A DNA stretch of 55,724 bases from Clostridia bacterium (GTDB lineage: Bacteria; Bacillota; Clostridia; Christensenellales; Aristaeellaceae): the NCBI GenBank assembly GCA_017527065.1, contig JAFXQO010000058.1:1-55724 (forward strand), given 5' to 3'. This document shows, piece after piece, positions 43,560 through 53,969 of this stretch (position 1 is its first letter; the number at the start of each line of letters is the position of its first letter). The translations under genes and the position numbers were made by a program. Below the pieces are notes generated by a model. The model saw only the letters and a program-made list of their open reading frames with translations. It was not told the origin of the DNA and did no database searches.

Positions 43560-44114
43560 TCAGGGTATCAGGTGTTTTACCATTTTGATTTCGCTGTGCG
43601 AGGAGCCGTCCGACAGATGATAGGCGTTGGGCACGCGGGCCACTTCCTGAAAGCCCATCTTCTCATACAGCGCCCTGCCCCGCTCGTTGCCCTCCACGTA
43701 TTCCAGCTCCAGCTGTTCCAGGCCCCAGTTCCGCGCGATGTCCTCCATCAGGCGGAACATGGCCGTGCCAATGCCGAGATTCCAGTATTTCTTATAGAGC
43801 GCGATGGCGACGCCGCCCCTGTGCCGCACCTTGCGCTTGGGGTTGAAGTGAATGTCGCAGTTGCCCGCGATTTCGCCGTTGACCTCGCAGACGATGAACA
43901 CGTTGCAGGGCGATTCAATGACGCCCTGCAGAAAGCGCTCCTCCTGCTCCACGGTCATGCTTGCCCGCTCGTCGGGATAGGCCATGATGAATTCCGTCTC
44001 GCCGGCGGTGGCGATGAGGTAATCCACCAGCGCCGCCGCGTCTTCCACGCGGGCCGGCCGCAGCAGGGCGGGGGTTCCGTCCTTCAGGACGATGGGCTTT
44101 TCTTCAAACAGCAT
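43560..44114 (-). CDS. GNAT family N-acetyltransferase
   Basis: The 184-residue protein has [17 protein letters not shown] at the N-terminus. The acetyl-CoA-binding motif A reads [19 protein letters not shown], in place of the usual R/Q-x-x-G-x-G/A, and [20 protein letters not shown] with [11 protein letters not shown] follows. It resembles the RimJ/RimL-like and small-molecule acetyltransferases. The substrate is unknown. The start ATG follows GAGGAGCGAGTCGCT. It lies 15 bases after the APH-fold gene and is probably the last gene of the T-box-controlled transcript. Confidence 0.88.
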
Positions 44115-44129
44115 AGCGACTCGCTCCTC

Positions 44130-45137
44130 TCAGCAATCATAATCATCGGTTCCGACGCCCGCGTATGGAATCGAATGGATCAGGCATTGAGCCGCGTCTT
44201 CGATGTCCTCGTAGTCCGGCTCTTCTCCTTCCCGCGCGCTGCATTCAAACTCGTCCACGATGTTTTCGATGAGCACCATGTCGATGAACAGGGGAAGCCG
44301 GGCCAGAAGCGCTTCGGAGACCTCCGTTTCATGCCTGTATCCCCGCAGGACGGCGTCGAAATACCAGCGCATGATCGCCATGCGCCTTTCCGCGTCCTTT
44401 TCAGACCGGCACCAGCCCACGCCGTGCGTCCAGAGATTGGCCAGATCGAACATGTACCAGCAGTTCATGCAGTTGTCGAAATCGAACACGGTCAGGTCGC
44501 CCGTGCTCATGTCGACGTGGTAATTGCCGTCGCTGAAATCGAAATGAACCAGGCCGTAGCTGCTTTGATCCATCGGAAGCGCGTGGAATTCCTCCAGCCG
44601 TTTTGCAATGGCGCTTTTCAATTCCGCATAGGAATCGGGGATCAGGCGGCTGATATAGTCCATGTTGTATTTATCGAAGTAGTCCGGGCGGCGGTGAGCC
44701 GGCGCATAGCGCTTGGAGAGAGCGTGGATCGCGCCGAGCGCCCTGCCGGTGTTGAAAAAATACTCCTCAAGGGGCGCGCCTTCCCGATAGCGATAGCCGT
44801 TGTCGGAGATCAGCATGCCCTTCGCATACTCGAACAGGCTGACGCAGACCGCCTTGCCGTTCCATTCGAGGCGTTCCACGTCTCTGCCCTGAACCGACGG
44901 GATCACATTTGCCACGGGCGCTCCGCTTTGCGCCAGGTAGCGCACGAATTCCGTCTCCGCCAGGTACTCCTCCAACCTCCTGTCGCCCAGCGCCGAGACG
45001 CGCAGGACGTATCTGTTTTCCCCGTTCAGACTGCAGATACAGACGAGATTGCGGCCGCCCTCGTGCCCGGACACCGGGCGGCACTCATACGCCTCCAGCG
45101 CGAACAGCTTTTTTGCGGAATCAAGTAGCTCCTTCAA
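44130..45137 (-). CDS. APH/choline-kinase-fold small-molecule phosphotransferase
   Basis: The 335-residue protein kinase-like fold keeps the catalytic loop GLVHFDFSDGNYHVD and the metal-binding TVFDFDNCMNCWYMFDLANL. The N-terminal lobe has ENRYVLRVSALGDRRLEEYL. Relatives phosphorylate homoserine, choline, hydroxylysine or aminoglycosides, and sequence alone does not choose among them. TTG 45137 was taken as the start because AGGAGG stands 8 bases upstream. It follows the acyl-CoA synthetase gene after 43 bases, so all three genes down to the GNAT probably share the T-box leader. Confidence 0.82.
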   Translation of the reverse strand: MKELLDSAKKLFALEAYECRPVSGHEGGRNLVCICSLNGENRYVLRVSALGDRRLEEYLAETEFVRYLAQSGAPVANVIPSVQGRDVERLEWNGKAVCVSLFEYAKGMLISDNGYRYREGAPLEEYFFNTGRALGAIHALSKRYAPAHRRPDYFDKYNMDYISRLIPDSYAELKSAIAKRLEEFHALPMDQSSYGLVHFDFSDGNYHVDMSTGDLTVFDFDNCMNCWYMFDLANLWTHGVGWCRSEKDAERRMAIMRWYFDAVLRGYRHETEVSEALLARLPLFIDMVLIENIVDEFECSAREGEEPDYEDIEDAAQCLIHSIPYAGVGTDDYDC

Positions 45138-45180: not shown

Positions 45181-47454
45181 TCACAGCTTGTTCCTGATGA
45201 TCTTTCCGCTGATGGTCTTGGGCAGTTCGTCGCGGAAGACCACGATGCGGGGGTACTTGTAAGGCGCGGTCTTCTGCTTCACGTAGGTCTGGATCTCCTT
45301 CTTCAGCTCGTCCGTGCCCACCGTGCCCCTGGTGAGCACGATGGACGCCTTGACCACCTGGCCGCGCACCTCGTCCGGCGCGGCGGACACGCCGCACTCC
45401 AGCACGTAGGGAAGCTCCATGATGACCGATTCGATCTCGAAGGGCCCGATGCGGTAGCCGGAGGACTTGATGACGTCGTCGGCGCGGCCCACGTACCAGT
45501 AGAAGCCGTCCTCGTCCTTCCAGGCCAGGTCGCCGGTGTGATACATGCCGTCGTGCCAGGCTTCCTTCGTGCGCTCCTCGTCGCGGTAGTAGCCCAGGAA
45601 CAGGCCGCAGGGGATCTTCCTGTCGGTGCGCACGACCACCTCTCCGGTCTCGCCGACGGGCACGGGATGGCCGTCCGCGTCCACCAGGTCGATGTCGTAG
45701 CCGGGCACGGGCTTGCCCATGGAGCCCAGCTTGTAGGTGGAACCGGTGAGGTTGCCGATGGTGAGAGTGGTTTCGGTCTGGCCGAAGCCCTCCATCACCT
45801 CCAGGCCGGTCATGGCCTCTATCTGACGGAACACCTCGGGGTTGAGCGCCTCGCCGGCGGTGGTGGCCTTCTGCACGGAGGAGAGGTCGTATTTGCTCAG
45901 GTCTTCCTTGATCATCATGCGGTACATGGTGGGCGGCGCGCAAAAGGTGGTCACGTTGTACCGCTTGAACAGCGGCAGGATGTCCGCCGCGTTGAAGCGG
46001 TCGAAGTCATAGGTGAACACGCAGCCCTCGCACAGCCATTGGCCGTACAGCTTGCCCCAGAGCGCCTTGCCCCAGCCGGTATCCGAGATGGTAAAGTGGA
46101 GCTTGCCCACCTGCACGCAGTGCCAGTATTTGGCGGTGATGAAGTGGCCCAGGGGATAGGTATAGGCGTGCTGCGCCATCTTCGGGTAGCCGGTGGTGCC
46201 GGAGGAGAAGAAGATGAGCATCGGGTCGTGTCCGCAGGGCGTGTCGGCGGTGCGCTCGTACTTGCCGGAGAACAGCTTGTATTCCCGGTCGAACAGGTGC
46301 CAGCCCGCCCTCGGCGTCTCGCCCGTGACCAGCTTGAGCTTCACCTGCGGGCACTGGGCCGCCGCCAGATCGACCTCGCGGCACAGCTCCTCGTCGTCGG
46401 CGCAGATGATGGCCGAGACGCCCGCCGCGTCGAAGCGGTAGGTGAGATCGTGCTCCTTGAGAAGGTTCGTGGCGGGAATTGCGATTGCGCCCAGCTTGTG
46501 CAGGCCCAGTATGGCGAACCAGAACTGGTAGTGCCGCTTGAGGATGAGCATCACGCGGTCGCCTTTCTTGATGCCCAGCGAAGTGAAGTAGTTCGCGCAC
46601 TGGGCGGAGGCGCGCTTGATGTCCGCAAAGGTGAAGCGGTGCTCGGCCTTGTTGTGGTCCAGGTGCAGCATGGCGGGGGCGTCGGGTTTCTTCTCGGCCA
46701 GCGCGTCCACCACGTCGAAGGCGAAGTTGAACTTGTCCTCGCCCACGAACTCGATTTCCCTGAGCAGGCCGTTTTCATCCTCTTTGGTTTTGATGAACCG
46801 CTCGGCGATGAGCCCGTCGGTGCGGCCGGCGGCCTTGATGGTCTTGGCGATGCGGCCCTCGTCGGCGTTGTCCTCGCCGGAGATGACCACCGCCAGGAAC
46901 TGGCAGGGAGAGCCGTCGATGGCGATCATGCCGTGAGGAGCGGAGGAGTTATAGTAGATGGAGTCGCCCTCGGCGAGGATCTCCGTATGGCCGCCCACCT
47001 GGACCTTCAAATGGCCCTTCAGGATCAGGTCGAATTCCTGGCCGGAGTGGGTGGTGGTATGGATGGGCTCCGTCTGCTGCTTGGGGATGTAGTCATAGGT
47101 GACGAAATACGGCTCGGCAAGCTTGCCCTTGAACATGGGGGCGAGGTTGCGGATGTCGATGCCGTCTTCCCGGGCGGTCTCGACGCCGCGGCCGGCGCGC
47201 GTCACAGTGTAGCTGGACAGGCGGGCGCTGGAGCCTTCGAGCAGCTCCGTGAGCTCGATGCCGAAGGCCAGGGAACACTTGTGGATAAAGGTGAAGGGGA
47301 GATCGACGAGGCCCTTCTCATATTTGAGATAGGTTTCCACGTCCAGCTCGGTTTTTTGCGCCATTTCCTCAACGGAGATGCCCATGACTTCCCGCATTTC
47401 ACGGATGCGCTGGCTGACCTCGGTGAGCATGTTCATGACATTGTTTGTTTCCAT
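45181..47454 (-). CDS. HTH-cupin-acyl-CoA synthetase fusion
   Basis: One 757-residue polypeptide joins a regulator to an enzyme. Residues about 10-65 form an XRE-type helix-turn-helix (RIREMREVMGISVEEMAQKT; ETYLKYEKGL). Residues about 115-190 form a cupin (TTTHSGQEFDLILKGHLKVQ; GDSIYYNSSAPHGMIAIDG). From about 235 to the end is an AMP-forming acyl-CoA synthetase: P-loop LIFFSSGTTGYPK, MEGFGQTETTLTIGNLTGS, YHTGDLAWKDEDGFYWYVGR, ADDVIKSSGYRIGPFEIES and the catalytic-Lys end PKTISGKIIRNKL. The enzyme part is closest in style to medium- or branched-chain acyl-CoA synthetases. ATG 47454 follows AAAGGAG by about 11 bases. Transcription is controlled by a T-box leader ending 36 bases upstream. The DNA-binding half may sense the acid or its CoA ester through the cupin; that is inference. 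Confidence 0.9.
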   Translation of the reverse strand: METNNVMNMLTEVSQRIREMREVMGISVEEMAQKTELDVETYLKYEKGLVDLPFTFIHKCSLAFGIELTELLEGSSARLSSYTVTRAGRGVETAREDGIDIRNLAPMFKGKLAEPYFVTYDYIPKQQTEPIHTTTHSGQEFDLILKGHLKVQVGGHTEILAEGDSIYYNSSAPHGMIAIDGSPCQFLAVVISGEDNADEGRIAKTIKAAGRTDGLIAERFIKTKEDENGLLREIEFVGEDKFNFAFDVVDALAEKKPDAPAMLHLDHNKAEHRFTFADIKRASAQCANYFTSLGIKKGDRVMLILKRHYQFWFAILGLHKLGAIAIPATNLLKEHDLTYRFDAAGVSAIICADDEELCREVDLAAAQCPQVKLKLVTGETPRAGWHLFDREYKLFSGKYERTADTPCGHDPMLIFFSSGTTGYPKMAQHAYTYPLGHFITAKYWHCVQVGKLHFTISDTGWGKALWGKLYGQWLCEGCVFTYDFDRFNAADILPLFKRYNVTTFCAPPTMYRMMIKEDLSKYDLSSVQKATTAGEALNPEVFRQIEAMTGLEVMEGFGQTETTLTIGNLTGSTYKLGSMGKPVPGYDIDLVDADGHPVPVGETGEVVVRTDRKIPCGLFLGYYRDEERTKEAWHDGMYHTGDLAWKDEDGFYWYVGRADDVIKSSGYRIGPFEIESVIMELPYVLECGVSAAPDEVRGQVVKASIVLTRGTVGTDELKKEIQTYVKQKTAPYKYPRIVVFRDELPKTISGKIIRNKL

Positions 47455-47490
47455 TTGGCGTCGTTCTCCTTTCGCGTTTGCGCCGGGACG

Positions 47491-47522
47491 AAAAAACCGT
47501 CTCAAGAATTCTCTTGAGACGG
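47491..47522 (-). terminator. T-box leader terminator
   Basis: CCGTCTCAAG (47497-47506) pairs perfectly with CTTGAGACGG (47513-47522). On the minus strand it is followed by six T (47491-47496). It competes with the antiterminator containing the T-box sequence just upstream. Confidence 0.92.
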
Positions 47523-47765
47523 GCAGATACTGCGCGCGGTACCACTCAACTTGCGTCTTTTGCAAAACGCCGCTTTTTCGGGCTCCAACAAGCCCTGTGC
47601 TTTTACGCAGCCCTACGGAAGACCTTTACTTGCGGCAGGCGTTCAAGGCTTCAGCTCGGAAGTGATAGGTTCTTCGGCATCGCGCTCCGCCGGCTTGCAC
47701 CCTCCGCCGGCTCTCTGAAGGAGACGATCCCAACCGTCTTCGTCACAGCTTTTCCCTATGTGGTT
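47491..47765 (-). ncRNA. T-box riboswitch leader
   Basis: On the minus strand the leader carries the antiterminator T-box TGAGTGGTACCGCGCG (47533-47548), then an intrinsic terminator. Upstream, Stem I-like sequence holds CAGAGAGCCGGCGG and GTGCAAGCCGGCGG, then GAAGAACCTATCACTTCC in the place expected for the specifier loop. Flanking pairs GTGA/TCAC and AGCT/AGCT close the base. My best specifier is ATC (isoleucine, 47664-47666, followed by A), but CTA (leucine) or another register cannot be excluded. Uncharged tRNA binding would favour read-through into the acyl-CoA synthetase gene. T-boxes normally control aminoacyl-tRNA synthetase, amino-acid synthesis and transport genes. Confidence 0.9.
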
Positions 47766-47771
47766 GTGCCT

Positions 47772-47800
47772 ATTTTATCGCCGATGCGGGTGCTTGTCAA
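47772..47800 (-). promoter_or_regulatory. Promoter of the T-box transcript
   Basis: On the minus strand TTGACA (47795-47800) and TAAAAT (47772-47777) are 17 bases apart, placing the start near 47765. Confidence 0.85.
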
Positions 47801-47998: not shown

Positions 47999-48089
47999 GA
48001 AGGAAATCATCCCCAATGTATCGTGCATGCTGGGTTTTTAGCTACAACCATGTATAATGTTCTTATATGGATCATTGTTGAGGTGTAAA

Positions 48090-51000
48090 ATGAAAAAGGA
48101 AATCATAGCCTTGTTGATGATCATCCTGCTTGTCAGATCAGCAGCGACTGCCGAAGACAGTGCATTGAAACAAACGTTTTCAGAGAACAACAAACTCATG
48201 CAAGAAGAATATGTTGATGAGCAGGGCCATCTCTTCATTGGAGAAAATGGCTTTGCCCGTCACGAGCTGTTTTATGATGAGAATGATCGCGTTACCCGCG
48301 AGGAGTATTATGGCAAAGATCTCGAACCCATAGCAAACAAAGATGGATATGCGGTCGTAGAACGACGCTATGACGGGAACGGGAGGATTATCTGGTGTCG
48401 TTATTTGGATGCAAATGGCATGCCCGTTGCGGTCAAGGGAGTCTGCGAACAGGAGTATGTTTTCGATGACGCGGGCAACCTTGTCTCTGAAACCGTGTAC
48501 GATGGCAACGGCCAGCGAACGCTTCATCCTGACGGGTGGTGTGAACACGAGACGGTATACAATGAATCGAAGCAGAAGATATCTGAGCGCTGGCTGGGTG
48601 TGAATGGCGAGCCTGCGCTGTATAAGAACAATTACAGCGGCATCGACCGTGTATTTGACGAGGCGGGCAATGCCGTTCGAGAGACATATTACGATATGAC
48701 CGGCAAGGTCGGAGCGAACAGCAGTGGCATCATCTGCATCGAGCGAAAATACGACGAGAAAAAGCGCGTGGTATGGTACCGTTTTCTCGATGCGGAAGGG
48801 CAGCCAATGATGCTCAATAACATCGTGGAAATGGAACAGGGCTATGACGAAAGCGGCAATGTGAATCATGAAACCATCTACGACGGCAACGGCCAGCGAA
48901 CACTTCACCCTGACGGGTGGTGTGAACACGAGACGGTGTACAATGAATCGAAGCAGAAGATATCTGAACGCTGGCTGGGCGTGAATGGCGAGCCTATACT
49001 ATATAAGGACAATTACAGCGGCATCGACCGTGTATTCGACGAGGCGGGCAATGCCGTTCGAGAGACATATTACGATATGACCGGCAAGGTCGGCGCGAAC
49101 AGCAGTGGCATCATCACCATCGAGCGGAAATACGACGGGAATAAGCGCGTGGTGTGGTTCCGTTATCTCGATGCGAAAGGGCAGCCAATGATGCTCAATA
49201 ACATCGTGGAATTGGAACAAGGGTATGATGAAAACGGCAATGTGAATCATGAAACCGTGTATGACGGCAGAGGCCAGCGAACGCTACACCCTGACGGGTG
49301 GTGCGAACACGAGGCGGTATACAATGAGGCGAAGCAGAAGATATCAGAGCGCTGGCTGGGTGTGAATGGCGAGCCTGCGCTGTACAAGAACAATTACAGC
49401 GGCGTCGACCGTGTGTTCGACGAAGCGGGCAATGTCATCCGAGAGACATATTACGATATAACCGGCGAGGTCGGCGCAAACAGCAGTGGCATCATCACCA
49501 TCGAGCGGAAATACGACGGGAATAAGCGCGTGGTGTGGTACCGTTTTCTCGATGCGGAAGGGCAGCCAATGATGCTCAATAACATCGTGGAATTGGAACA
49601 GGGCTATGACGAAAGCAGCAATGTAGATCATGAAACCGTGTACGACGGCAATGGCCAGCGAACGCTTCACCCCGATGGATGGTGTGAACACGAGATGGTA
49701 TACAATGAGGCGAAGCAGAAGATATCAGAGCGCTGGCTGGGCTTGAATGGCGAGCCAGTGCTGTACAAGAACAATTACAGCGGCATCGACCAGGTTTTCG
49801 ACGAGGCTGGGAATGTCATCCGAGTGACATATTACGATATTACGGGTGAGGTCGGAGCGAACAGCAGTGGCGTCATCAGCATCGAGCGGAAATATGACGG
49901 GAATAAGCGCGTGGTATGGTTCCGTTATCTCGATGCGGAAGGGCAGCCAATGATGTACAAAAACATCGTGGAATTGGAATGGGGTTATGACGAAAGCGGC
50001 AATATAAATCATGAAACCGTTTATGACGGCAACGGCCAGCGAACGCTTCACCCTGACGGGTGGTGTGAACACGAGGCGGTGTACAACGAATCGAAGCAGA
50101 AGATATCTGAACGCTGGCTGGGTGTGAATGGCGAGCCCGCTCTGTACAAGGACAATTACAGCGGCATCGACCGTGTATACGATGAAGCGGGCAATGTCAT
50201 TCGAGAGACATATTATGATATTACCGGCCAGGTCGGCGCAAACAGCAGTGGCATCATCACCATCGAGCGGAAATACGACGTGAATAAGCGCGTGGTGTGG
50301 TACCGTTATCTCGATGCGGAAGGGCAGCCAATGCTGCTCAATAACATCGCAGAAATGGAACAGGGGTATGACGAAAACGGCAATGTGAACCATGAAACCG
50401 TGTACGACGGCAACGGCCAGCGAACGCTTCACCCTGACGGGTGGTGCGAACACGAGGCGGTATACAATGAATCGAAGCAGAAGATATCAGAGCGCTGGCT
50501 GGATGTGAATGGCGAGCCTGCGCTGTACAAGGACGCATACAGTGGCATCGACCGTGTATACGATGAAGCGGGCAATGTCATCCGAGAGATATATTATGAT
50601 ATTACGGGCGAGGTCGGCGCGAACAGCAGTGGCGTCATTGCCATCGAGCGGAAATACGACGAGAAAAAGCGCGTGGTGTGGTTCCGATATCTCGATGCTG
50701 AAGGACAGCCAATGTTGCTCAATAACATCGCAGAAATGGAATGGGGCTATGACGAGAACGGCAATGTGAATCATGAAACCGTCTATGATGCCAATGGCCA
50801 GCGAACGCTTCACCCGGACGGATGGTGCGAACACGAGACGGTATACAATGAGGCGAAGCAGAAGGTATCTGAGCGCTGGCTGGGTGTGAATGGCGAGACT
50901 ATGCTGTATAAGAACGCATACAGCGGCATCGACCGTGTATTTGACGAGGCGGGCAATGTCATCCGAGAGACATATTACGATATTATGGGCGAGGTCGGCG

Positions 51001-53969
51001 CGAACAGCAGCGGCGTCATCACCATTGAGCGGAAATACGACGTGAATAAGCGCGTGGTGTGGTTCCGTTACCTCGATGCGGAAGGGCAGCCAATGATGCT
51101 CAATAACATCGTGGAAATGGAACAGGGCTATGACGAAAGCGGCAATGTGAATCATGAAACCGTCTACGATGGCAGGGGCCAGCGTACACTTCACCCTGAC
51201 GGGTGGTGCGAACACGAGGCGGTATACAATGAGGCGAAGCAGAAGGTATCTGAGCGCTGGCTGGGTGTGAATGGCGAGCCTGCGCTGTATAAGAACAATT
51301 ACAGCGGCATCGACCGTGTATTCGACGAGGCGGGCAATGCCGTTCGAGAGACATATTACGATATGACCGGCAAGGTCGGAGCGAACAGCAGTGGCGTCAT
51401 CACCATCGAGCGGAGATACGACGAGAAAAAGCGCGTTGTGTGGTTCCGTTATCTCGATGCGGAAGGGCAGCCAATGATATACGAAAACATCGTGGAATTG
51501 GAATGGGGCTATGACGAAAGCGGCAATGTGAATCATGAAACCGTCTACGACGGCAACGGCCAGCGAACGCTTCACCCTGACGGGTGGTGCGAACACGAGA
51601 CGGTATACAATGAGGTGAAGCAGAAGGTATCAGAGCGCTGGCAGGGTGTGAATGGCGAGCCTGCGCTGTACAAGAACAATTACAGCGGCGTCGACCGTGT
51701 ATTCGACGATACGGGCAATGTCATCCGAGAGACATATTATGATTTGACCGGCAAGGTCGGACCAAACAGCAGTGGCGTCATCAGCATTGAGCGGAAATAC
51801 GACGAGAAAAAGCGCGTGGTGTGGTTCCGTTACCTCGATGCGGAAGGGCAGCCAATGATGCTCAATAACATCGTGGAATTGGAATGGAGCTATGACGAAA
51901 ACGGCAATTTGAATCATGAAACCGTGTACGACGGCAGGGGCCAGCGAACGCTTCACCCGGACGGGTGGTGCGAACACGAGGCGGTGTACAATGAGGCGAA
52001 GCAGAAGATATCAGAGCGTTGGCTGGGTGTGAACGGCGAGCCTGTTCTGTACAAGAACAATTACAGCGGCATCGACCGGGTCTATGATGAGAAAGGCAAA
52101 GTCATCCGCGAGACGTATTATGAAATTACAGGCTCGGTTGGCCCGAACGCCGATGGCGTGATTACGCAGGAGACCAGTTACGACGAGGATGGTCGTGTTA
52201 TAGAGCTGCGCTATCTCAACGCGGAGGGTCGACCGATGGCGCTCGAATCCCTTGGAGCGTACGCTGAGCGGCGCGCCTACGATGAGTATGGCAACGTGTG
52301 CCGCACTTGGCTGACGAACAGCGAGGGCCGACTGATGGTTGGCGTAAAGGGCTGGGCTATTGCCGAATACCTCTTCGACGAGGCGAAGCACAGACTCTCG
52401 GAAGCTTACTTCGGAGAGGATGGCCGGATGATCGTAGCCGAGGGCGGCTACGCTATGGTCAAGCGCACCTACGATGAGCAGGGCAATGTCACCTCCGAAA
52501 CATATTACGATGCCAGCGGCAGGCCAGCGGACAACGCGCGCGGCGTGACCCAGGTCAATCGCGTCTTCGACGGCTCAAATATACCGGTTTATGAAGAATA
52601 CCGCGATAGGACGGGCAGCTTGTGCATGGATGCGAACAGTGGCTGCGCCGCCGTCTCGCGCCTGTTGGATGACGCGGGCAACGTCCTCAGAGAGAGCTAC
52701 TTTGATACAGATGGCATGGCCATGGTCAACCCGAAGCGCAGCTATGCCACGGTCACCCGCGAATACGACGAAGCAGGCCGCGTCATTTGCGAAGCGTATT
52801 TCGACGTGAATGGCGCACCGATGCTAGTCAAGGGCCGGCATAGGCTCATTCGTCAGTACGACGAAGCTGGCAATATCATCATGGAGCAGCAGTTTGACGC
52901 GAATGGCCGCCTGATCATATCTGGGCAGGGCTACGCCACCGTGCGTCGCCTCTATGACGCAAAAAACCGCATGATCGAGGAGCGTTACTACGACAACGAG
53001 GGCAATCCCATTCGCTGCAAGTCGGGTTTCGCCGCGCAGGTCATGACCTACGCTGAGGGCGGCAAGCCGGTCAGCCGGTGTTATTTTGACACGGACGGCA
53101 GCCGGATGGCGGTTGGCGGTTACCACATGGTGGTATACGCCTACAACGCCGCTGGCAGCACGCTTACCGAGAGTTATTTCGACGCCGAGGGCAACCGTAC
53201 GCTGAGTGATAAGGGCTATGCCATCATCTGCTACAACTACGATGACAGCGGCAATCTGGCCGACACCGCCTACTACAACGAAGAATGCCTGCCCATCGTC
53301 ATTGGCGCGGGCTACGCTTCGGTGCATACTCAGCGCGATGAACGTGGCAACATCCTGCGCGAGAGCTATTACGACAAGGAAGGCTTGCCTATGACGCACA
53401 AGTATGGCTACGCGGCCATCGTGCGCACATTCGACGAGAAGAACCGCATGCTCTCACTGGAATACCATGATTCGGATGACAACCTCGTCAAAGCGCGAAG
53501 CACCGGATACGCGCGCGTCGAATACGATTACGACGAGGCGGGCAACAAGATTGCCGAACGGTATTACAACGTCAAAGGTGAGTTGGCCTGCCCGAAGTTC
53601 CTGAGCCCAGCCGCAAAGAAATGGGAATATGACGCAAACAACAAGCTGATCTCCGAGCGTTACTACGATGGTAATATGAATCTGATGAACATCGTCGCCG
53701 GCTACGCGGGTTTCGTCAACTCGTACAGCGATGATTACACCGTGATGGAGCAGAGTTACCTCGACGCGAACGATCAGATTATCACCGGCTGGACGACCAT
53801 GGGTTATTGCAAGATCCGCCGCACCTACGACAAGACGGGCAGTTTGCTGCTGAAGGAGGAGTACCTGAATGGGAATGATGAGCCGGCGCGAACAAAATCG
53901 GGTTACTTATATGGCAAGGTGTACGAATATGATGAGTCGGGCCGCCTGATACGCGAATACACCTTTTGA
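48090..53969 (+). CDS. Giant secreted YD/RHS-like repeat protein
   Basis: A 1,959-residue exported protein. ATG 48090 follows GAGGTG, and MKKEIIALLMIILLVRSAAT is a signal peptide. Almost the whole mature chain is built from about 32-residue units of the type [YF]D-x2-G-(N/K)-x3-E-x-Y-(Y/L)-D-x2-G-x-P, alternating with Gly-rich turns, for example VFDEAGNAVRETYYDMTGK. This resembles YD-repeat or RHS-type beta-strand wraps, but there is no RHS core motif (PxxxxDPxG) and no C-terminal toxin domain. Residues 123-1392 are ten exact-length 127-residue blocks; the rest is single diverged units. A TGA at 53967-53969 ends the frame, although clear repeat sequence continues in frame to 54086. A -10 box (TATAAT, 48053-48058) lies near the start. 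Function is unknown; a surface or adhesion scaffold is plausible. Confidence 0.8.
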   Translation: MKKEIIALLMIILLVRSAATAEDSALKQTFSENNKLMQEEYVDEQGHLFIGENGFARHELFYDENDRVTREEYYGKDLEPIANKDGYAVVERRYDGNGRIIWCRYLDANGMPVAVKGVCEQEYVFDDAGNLVSETVYDGNGQRTLHPDGWCEHETVYNESKQKISERWLGVNGEPALYKNNYSGIDRVFDEAGNAVRETYYDMTGKVGANSSGIICIERKYDEKKRVVWYRFLDAEGQPMMLNNIVEMEQGYDESGNVNHETIYDGNGQRTLHPDGWCEHETVYNESKQKISERWLGVNGEPILYKDNYSGIDRVFDEAGNAVRETYYDMTGKVGANSSGIITIERKYDGNKRVVWFRYLDAKGQPMMLNNIVELEQGYDENGNVNHETVYDGRGQRTLHPDGWCEHEAVYNEAKQKISERWLGVNGEPALYKNNYSGVDRVFDEAGNVIRETYYDITGEVGANSSGIITIERKYDGNKRVVWYRFLDAEGQPMMLNNIVELEQGYDESSNVDHETVYDGNGQRTLHPDGWCEHEMVYNEAKQKISERWLGLNGEPVLYKNNYSGIDQVFDEAGNVIRVTYYDITGEVGANSSGVISIERKYDGNKRVVWFRYLDAEGQPMMYKNIVELEWGYDESGNINHETVYDGNGQRTLHPDGWCEHEAVYNESKQKISERWLGVNGEPALYKDNYSGIDRVYDEAGNVIRETYYDITGQVGANSSGIITIERKYDVNKRVVWYRYLDAEGQPMLLNNIAEMEQGYDENGNVNHETVYDGNGQRTLHPDGWCEHEAVYNESKQKISERWLDVNGEPALYKDAYSGIDRVYDEAGNVIREIYYDITGEVGANSSGVIAIERKYDEKKRVVWFRYLDAEGQPMLLNNIAEMEWGYDENGNVNHETVYDANGQRTLHPDGWCEHETVYNEAKQKVSERWLGVNGETMLYKNAYSGIDRVFDEAGNVIRETYYDIMGEVGANSSGVITIERKYDVNKRVVWFRYLDAEGQPMMLNNIVEMEQGYDESGNVNHETVYDGRGQRTLHPDGWCEHEAVYNEAKQKVSERWLGVNGEPALYKNNYSGIDRVFDEAGNAVRETYYDMTGKVGANSSGVITIERRYDEKKRVVWFRYLDAEGQPMIYENIVELEWGYDESGNVNHETVYDGNGQRTLHPDGWCEHETVYNEVKQKVSERWQGVNGEPALYKNNYSGVDRVFDDTGNVIRETYYDLTGKVGPNSSGVISIERKYDEKKRVVWFRYLDAEGQPMMLNNIVELEWSYDENGNLNHETVYDGRGQRTLHPDGWCEHEAVYNEAKQKISERWLGVNGEPVLYKNNYSGIDRVYDEKGKVIRETYYEITGSVGPNADGVITQETSYDEDGRVIELRYLNAEGRPMALESLGAYAERRAYDEYGNVCRTWLTNSEGRLMVGVKGWAIAEYLFDEAKHRLSEAYFGEDGRMIVAEGGYAMVKRTYDEQGNVTSETYYDASGRPADNARGVTQVNRVFDGSNIPVYEEYRDRTGSLCMDANSGCAAVSRLLDDAGNVLRESYFDTDGMAMVNPKRSYATVTREYDEAGRVICEAYFDVNGAPMLVKGRHRLIRQYDEAGNIIMEQQFDANGRLIISGQGYATVRRLYDAKNRMIEERYYDNEGNPIRCKSGFAAQVMTYAEGGKPVSRCYFDTDGSRMAVGGYHMVVYAYNAAGSTLTESYFDAEGNRTLSDKGYAIICYNYDDSGNLADTAYYNEECLPIVIGAGYASVHTQRDERGNILRESYYDKEGLPMTHKYGYAAIVRTFDEKNRMLSLEYHDSDDNLVKARSTGYARVEYDYDEAGNKIAERYYNVKGELACPKFLSPAAKKWEYDANNKLISERYYDGNMNLMNIVAGYAGFVNSYSDDYTVMEQSYLDANDQIITGWTTMGYCKIRRTYDKTGSLLLKEEYLNGNDEPARTKSGYLYGKVYEYDESGRLIREYTF
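48456..52265 (+). repeat. Ten-copy 381-bp tandem coding repeat
   Basis: The codons for PDGW recur with the Asp codon at 48531, 48912, 49293, 49674, 50055, 50436, 50817, 51198, 51579 and 51960: every interval is exactly 381 bases. Each 127-residue unit consists of four sub-repeats of 32, 32, 32 and 31 residues, beginning roughly GYDESGN, VYNE(S/A)KQK, VFDEAGN and KYD(G/E)(N/K)K. Copies are highly alike with scattered substitutions and no indels. The first and last copies are the most diverged. Confidence 0.95.

Follow-up and report, generated by a model that had tools for sequence, protein, structure and literature searches.

A T-box leader with an isoleucine specifier upstream of an HTH-cupin-acyl-CoA synthetase fusion in a Clostridia bacterium, and a proposed branched-acid route to isoleucine

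The fused gene and its leader

The stretch of DNA analysed here, 55,724 nt of contig JAFXQO010000058.1 from the Clostridia bacterium assembly GCA_017527065.1 (hereafter the window), carries on its reverse strand one gene that encodes a helix-turn-helix (HTH), a cupin and an AMP-forming acyl-CoA synthetase (ACS) domain in a single protein. It is preceded by a T-box leader with an isoleucine specifier codon. A preliminary description had placed a consensus promoter, a T-box motif and a perfect terminator upstream of one fused polypeptide, and all of them are present; its coordinates required correction, since the control elements occupy positions 47491–47800, upstream of the gene. The features are listed below in the direction of transcription.

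47795–47800, reverse strand: −35 hexamer TTGACA (from the sequence)
47772–47777, reverse strand: −10 hexamer TAAAAT, with a spacer of 17 nt (from the sequence)
47512–47755, reverse strand: T-box leader RNA, Stem I to antiterminator (RF00230 covariance model)
47664–47666, reverse strand: specifier codon ATC, isoleucine (covariance-model alignment and spacing rule)
47535–47545, reverse strand: T-box antiterminator motif GTGGTACCGCG, bulge UGGU (from the sequence)
47491–47522, reverse strand: intrinsic terminator with a perfect 11-bp stem, GAAT loop and T6 (from the sequence)
47466–47472, reverse strand: ribosome-binding site AAAGGAG (from the sequence)
45181–47454, reverse strand: HTH-cupin-ACS fusion, 757 aa (stop included), ATG at 47454
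47233–47412, reverse strand: HTH domain, residues 15–74 (Pfam HTH_3)
46885–47085, reverse strand: cupin domain, residues 124–190 (Pfam Cupin_2)
45202–46701, reverse strand: AMP-forming ACS domain, residues 252–751 (Pfam)
46069–46071, reverse strand: codon of Gly462, the column that separates Ile-type from Val-type enzymes

The presence of a T-box is borne out by the Rfam covariance model RF00230, which matched the reverse strand at 47755–47512 over its full length (1–219 of 219) with 90.0 bits and an E-value of 2.8e-20 (3.3e-20 in a search of the host's own genome). The Rfam gathering score is 93, 3 bits higher, which explains why the element is missing from a scan at the gathering threshold. 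The host genome holds 19 T-box matches, seven over and 12 under that score. Among the genes with a leader in the lower group are pheS, metG, tyrS, valS, serS and hisS, as identified by NCBIfam; a sub-threshold score is therefore ordinary in this host. The window leader, in which specifier, T-box motif and terminator were all found, was classed as a T-box because the gathering cut-off is a curation threshold and no feature of the RNA. Its promoter is near-consensus. Among 87 leaders of labelled relatives in which a script detected the start of Stem I, a promoter score of at least 10 out of 12 was found upstream in 72, against 5 of 87 for shuffled sequences. As judged from its sequence, the window leader is a transcriptional T-box with an AUC specifier, and a response to tRNA-Ile is predicted.

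The isoleucine specifier, proposed tentatively in the preliminary description, is upheld in two ways. AUC falls in the specifier column of the RF00230 alignment, and it agrees with a spacing rule that counts back a set number of nucleotides to the triplet from the purine-A-G closing the specifier loop. This rule was checked on 12 host leaders with NCBIfam-identified genes and, applied strictly, was correct in nine (thrS, ileS, leuS, pheS, metG, tyrS, valS, asnB and cysE). The alaS and serS leaders have no purine-A-G, and visual reading, with the same spacing measured from the pyrimidine run, gave GCC and TCC, as expected; in the hisS leader the rule gives GAC, with CAC 3 nt downstream, and it fails there unless a second gene is also under this leader. 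The UGGU bulge of the window leader fits an A73 discriminator. A competing AAC (Asn) reading, based on the 5′ spacing, was rejected as disfavoured by the 3′ spacing and by the bulge, because the host tRNA-Asn has G73 (the host asnB leader bulge is UGGC), although U-G wobble might still permit such a pairing. The host tRNA-Val has anticodon GAC and A73; ARAGORN, applied to 29 loci out of the draft genome's 44 tRNA matches, showed no tRNA-Ile gene.

The fused protein was described earlier as a single chain with HTH, cupin and ACS domains, and Pfam confirms this in the 757-aa frame (HTH_3 26.1 bits against a cut-off of 23, Cupin_2 49.1, AMP-binding 214.2 and AMP-binding_C 74.3). A start at 47565, given in the list of open reading frames (ORFs), was discarded as over-extended into the leader; the gene starts at 47454. 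In a structure model built from 10 sequences the HTH region is helical; the mean predicted local distance difference test (pLDDT) value is 70.4 and lies below 50 at residues 458–467, so the model was kept out of pocket geometry and fold searches. The top PDB match of the ACS part is 3etc_A (E 1.3e-188, covering residues 234–754), and its top NCBIfam match, AcylCoAsynMbcS (NF047394), scores 427 bits and does not reach the cut-off of 850. Lys663 and Lys751, which we take to be the catalytic lysines, are found in 173 and 169 of 174 aligned units, respectively, the remainder being all gaps.

Specifiers and acyl pocket among the relatives

Relatives were drawn from 150 genomes within the host's family (part of the listed matches) and 80 named loci; by record title, they are mainly metagenome assemblies from ruminant and other animal gut samples. 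Units were clustered at 97%, and a fused unit is by definition one holding both HTH-cupin and ACS. The 171 distinct fused units comprise 98 with an Ile specifier, 61 with Val and none with any other, plus two with an unread T-box and 10 without a T-box. All Ile codons are ATC, and the Val codons are GTA (45), GTC (12) and GTG (4). Nine units were set by hand: six (L039, L085, L096, L112, L147 and L198) to a codon that the script had missed or misread, L043 as confirmed, L046 as unread, and the split unit L189 as having no T-box. Six truncated units lacking the ACS part (four Val, two with no T-box) were excluded. A check with Rfam gave two T-boxes apiece for L059, L116, L134 and L137, and a single one for L196 and for L203. 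The leaders of L046 (G133:C43), L044 and L090 contain long inserts, which separate Stem I from the antiterminator or the terminator from the gene.

A search at class level covered 391 genomes, of which 140 had a match at E<=1e-200. From these, 89 loci were used (29 supplied with the search and 60 fetched), and 10 further full-length fused matches were left out. After removal of 17 near-copies (97% mutually or to the family set) from 90 units, 73 remained: 48 Ile (one of them split), 18 Val, no other specifier, five without T-box and two with cut leaders. L241, L259 and L276 were read by hand owing to a degenerate motif or a script misreading. In both sets, the readable specifiers of these relatives are only Ile or Val, in line with the check suggested by the preliminary description. 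A T-box motif is absent from 17 of 20 more distant ACS loci (L317–L336); the specifier is ATC in L327 and L328, and L334, of the split class, has a T-box with an ambiguous specifier (ATC or TCA) and was excluded from the counts.

The Ile-type and Val-type units are frequently neighbours. In the 33 tandems of the family set, an Ile unit comes first 32 times, with a Val unit behind it in 26 cases and a copy without T-box in six; in the remaining tandem, L076, neither copy has a T-box. At loci with enough sequence, the gene for VorA, a subunit of 2-oxoisovalerate:ferredoxin oxidoreductase (VOR), lies downstream of 35 of 55 Ile units, 30 of 54 Val units and six of eight units without a readable T-box. 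The usual order is Ile-T-box/ACS1, Val-T-box/ACS2, ATPase, VorDABC. The full Ile/Val tandem, together with the VOR genes, is present in L059, L060 and L110, three metagenome assemblies that bear the title Ruminococcus sp.; cultured rumen species of Ruminococcus are known to require branched acids.

The structure 3ETC is that of MacsMa of Methanosarcina acetivorans, whose preferred substrate is 2-methylbutyrate and whose acyl pocket features Trp259 and a Gly replacing Trp416 of Acs (PMC10455477). These two residues correspond to Trp466 and Gly558 of the window protein, by our own offset from the 3etc alignment, and all 174 aligned units have both. The window family therefore carries the sequence markers of the Macs type, namely the AMP-binding fold, the conserved Lys, Gly558 and Trp466. 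As the best solved match, MacsMa also shares the Gly equivalent to Gly462, in addition to the pocket Trp and Gly; it differs in being archaeal and in matching residues 234–754 only, hence without an HTH-cupin part.

Residue 462, four positions before Trp466, is the alignment column most informative on the specifier. In the family and class-level sets together, Ile-type enzymes have Gly in 146 of 150 cases (Ala in two, Met in two), and Val-type enzymes have Ala in 78 of 78, two Val units with a truncated ACS being left out of the scoring. The rule holds for 48/48 Ile and 18/18 Val units in the class-level set alone. Seven second copies without T-box (six after an Ile unit, plus L076_6046) have Ala462, as expected for the Val type. 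Because of its nearness to Trp466, residue 462 probably lines the pocket, and Ala instead of Gly in Val-type enzymes matches the need of a smaller acid.

Paralogue, oxidoreductase operon and the proposed route

The host encodes a second HTH-cupin-ACS protein, on contig C38, with 65% identity to the window protein and its own T-box (83.8 bits, specifier GUC, Val). The gene order there is Val T-box, ACS, ATPase, ferredoxin-like VorD, VorA, VorB, VorC, which amounts to a complete VOR set. VorA scores 537.5 bits against the cut-off of 399 of NF005507 (3-methyl-2-oxobutanoate dehydrogenase); the best matches of the beta, gamma and delta proteins are 2-oxoacid oxidoreductase subunits, all under their cut-offs. 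The 218-aa P-loop ATPase of this operon (L208:5345-5998, reverse strand) has a weak CbiA match (21.4 bits), and such a gene precedes VorD in the listed VOR-bearing loci.

The canonical set for branched-chain amino acid synthesis was not encountered in the host draft genome: IlvB and IlvC gave no matches there, and the best IlvD-like match has 504 bits against a cut-off of 618. A branched-chain transaminase is present (TIGR01123, 407 bits against a cut-off of 250).

The best explanation of this arrangement, which we hold with considerable confidence, is a tRNA-Ile-gated route from a branched acid to isoleucine, with a valine counterpart through the paralogue. The T-box would sense the charging of tRNA-Ile, and uncharged tRNA-Ile would stabilise the antiterminator, so that the HTH-cupin-ACS protein is made. 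The ACS would turn an external branched short-chain acid, most likely 2-methylbutyrate, into its CoA ester; VOR from the C38 operon would carboxylate 2-methylbutyryl-CoA with reduced ferredoxin to 3-methyl-2-oxopentanoate, which the branched-chain transaminase would convert to isoleucine. Under tRNA-Val, the paralogue would lead from isobutyrate to valine by the same route. The scavenging of branched acids under tRNA-Ile control had been put forward in the preliminary description, and it is supported by the Val-type paralogue, the VOR linkage, the undetected IlvB and IlvC, the transaminase, the kinship to MacsMa and the specifier-correlated residue; the substrate and the direction of flux, as well as antitermination in vivo and a part for the HTH-cupin region, are inferred.

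The chemistry proposed is old. Rumen anaerobes carboxylate 2-methylbutyrate to isoleucine and isobutyrate to valine (PMC7356843, citing Robinson and Allison 1969 and Allison and Peel 1971). That work of Allison and co-workers (1966–1971) is, as cited in PMC7356843, physiology, without dedicated tRNA-controlled paired genes. T-box control of branched-chain amino acid synthesis has been reported in Bacillales and Clostridia (PMC2494555). The T-boxes of these operons and transporters share with the window leader the RF00230 architecture, Ile/Val specifiers and transcription antitermination, but the gene controlled in the window is an acid-activating synthetase that goes with VOR and not with the acetolactate route. 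The words 'acyl-CoA' and 'ferredoxin' have no occurrence in the main text of that T-box census (PMC2494555). In the open-licence literature searched, T-box-controlled activation of branched acids was not found; within it, what is new is the tRNA-gated acid-activating fusion in Ile/Val pairs with VOR.

The CoA esters could instead prime branched-chain membrane lipids, as those made by MbcS of Listeria do, the T-box then reflecting a shared dependence on Ile/Val supply. VOR-type enzymes are reversible, and AcylCoAsynMbcS is the best NCBIfam model of the ACS part; however, its 427 bits are half of the 850 required, so MbcS is a distant likeness, and control by tRNA charging together with linked VOR genes indicates amino-acid synthesis. 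As a replacement for that synthesis the lipid role is improbable, and as a role alongside it, possible.

Propionate is plentiful in the gut, and the ACS might activate this acid, with a pyruvate-type oxidoreductase yielding 2-oxobutyrate and isoleucine being made by acetohydroxyacid synthase, ketol-acid reductoisomerase and dihydroxyacid dehydratase. The Ile specifier would suit such a route, as would a long frame of the pyruvate:ferredoxin oxidoreductase type in the host (C55, 1181 aa). It is nevertheless highly improbable: IlvB and IlvC would have to sit in unassembled sequence, the Val specifiers and the VOR linkage are left unexplained, and MacsMa forms propionyl-adenylate, yet completes the two-step reaction with 2-methylbutyrate (PMC10455477).

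That the protein is mainly a regulator, with the T-box tuning a transcription factor and enzyme activity secondary, is very unlikely as well: split relatives do retain the HTH-cupin gene immediately upstream of the ACS gene (its presence in fused units is no evidence, because they are defined by it), but Lys663 and Lys751 are never substituted in 174 units, gaps aside, the Val-type copies are about 64–73% identical to the window protein in the ACS part against about 38–51% in the HTH-cupin part, and for 10 of the 20 more distant ACS loci the fetched sequence contains no match to HTH-cupin.

Several results weigh against the branched-acid route to isoleucine and temper its support. The Ile-type gene of the window has no VOR beside it, and VOR must act in trans. 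The absences of host genes are no proof, because the draft assembly is 89% complete. In the split relatives, where HTH-cupin and ACS are separate genes, 35 of 40 clusters have no T-box (four have Ile, one Val), and residue 462 is Ala (31) or Met (4) in those without one, so that this residue alone does not prove the substrate. The residue has exceptions: fused L205, an Ile unit with Ala within a Val clade, and split L174 (Ala), L177 and L179 (both Met). When the tree was computed with the pocket columns removed, specifier and residue 462 each required 10 changes, and six supported independent pairs gave five that agree, none that oppose and one neutral (sign test p 0.0625; two, none and one, respectively, in the family set alone). 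The association of specifier and residue 462 is striking, and its phylogenetic independence is modest.

For the co-occurrence of IlvC, the signal depends on the level of comparison. Among the 150 family genomes, with genome lists for IlvC and the fused ACS transcribed by hand, IlvC exceeds its cut-off in two of 48 carriers of the fused ACS, compared with 50 of 102 non-carriers (p 9e-9); when cut genes are counted, the figures are 5/51 and 48/99 (p 1.6e-6). Also on the opposing side, within genera this avoidance is not significant (Cochran–Mantel–Haenszel p 0.17; 142 genus-coded genomes, six mixed genera), and after collapse to genus level no association of IlvC and ACS was found (p 1.0). The avoidance thus lies mainly between genera, and it fits a replacement of the acetolactate route without proving it.

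A wider view, which we offer tentatively and regard as somewhat less likely to hold than to fail, is that whole lineages of gut Clostridia dropped acetolactate-based synthesis of isoleucine and valine and live on branched volatile acids, the tRNA-gated ACS pair having replaced it. The specifier would then predict the substrate, residue 462 would set 2-methylbutyrate versus isobutyrate, and the HTH-cupin part may be a second, protein-level sensor, placing the transcript under both RNA and protein control.

Branched-acid use by gut and rumen bacteria has been described since the 1960s, and isoacids serve as a ruminant feed additive (PMC12272956); the genes reported here are specific, regulated candidates for it. 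As the leader specifier names the product, the substrate of an ambiguous enzyme family may be annotated from an RNA codon. The proposed single-residue specificity switch at position 462 is directly testable, and genome content would predict which bacteria rely on branched acids from their neighbours.

Neighbouring genes and other T-box operons of the host

Two neighbours of the fused gene were considered. The APH-like kinase (44130–45137) was rejected as part of the pathway, since such a gene lies within 600 nt behind the ACS in only two of 185 units (the window genome and one same-genus genome). The GNAT gene (43560–44114, reverse strand) stands two genes behind the ACS in the window, and its product may modify the ACS catalytic lysine. 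A GNAT gene is directly downstream in five of 87 Ile-type fused units (L048, L049, L112, L133 and L136) and in four of 29 split units without T-box, which is too rare to claim a lysine acetyltransferase acting on the ACS. A very long open frame (1970 aa), at 48057–53969 on the forward strand, matches a MORN_2 repeat and is faced by several spaced ORFs on the opposite strand; it probably encodes a large repetitive protein.

The top-scoring T-box of the host (L001, 112.6 bits, Tyr specifier TAC) heads an operon on contig C85 (G000:C85, L209:4504-9672, reverse strand) that encodes an acyl-CoA ligase, IorA (720 bits against a cut-off of 650.9), IorB and an aminotransferase-like protein. The operon appears to serve tRNA-Tyr-controlled synthesis of an aromatic amino acid from an arylacetate. 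Its logic is that of the window system (T-box, ligase and 2-oxoacid oxidoreductase); it differs in being aromatic, in a distant ligase (34% identity over a part, 25% in another comparison) and in having no HTH-cupin match. Another Tyr T-box (L005, TAC), on C17 (G000:C17, L338:4701-6362, reverse strand), precedes a gene for a sodium:solute symporter (SSF, 193 bits), which may import tyrosine or an aromatic acid.

On C23 (G000:C23, L337:2641-6098, forward strand), a T-box read as CTG (Leu; L010) precedes a LeuA-like synthase (HMGL-like and LeuA_dimer), followed by a TIM-barrel/AMP-binding fusion that is cut by the contig end and is another T-box-linked AMP-binding enzyme. On C84 (G000:C84, L339:2116-5891, forward strand), a T-box read as TGG (Trp; L014) precedes a lactate/malate dehydrogenase-like gene, after which comes an apparent ABC importer with a substrate-binding protein of PF04392.

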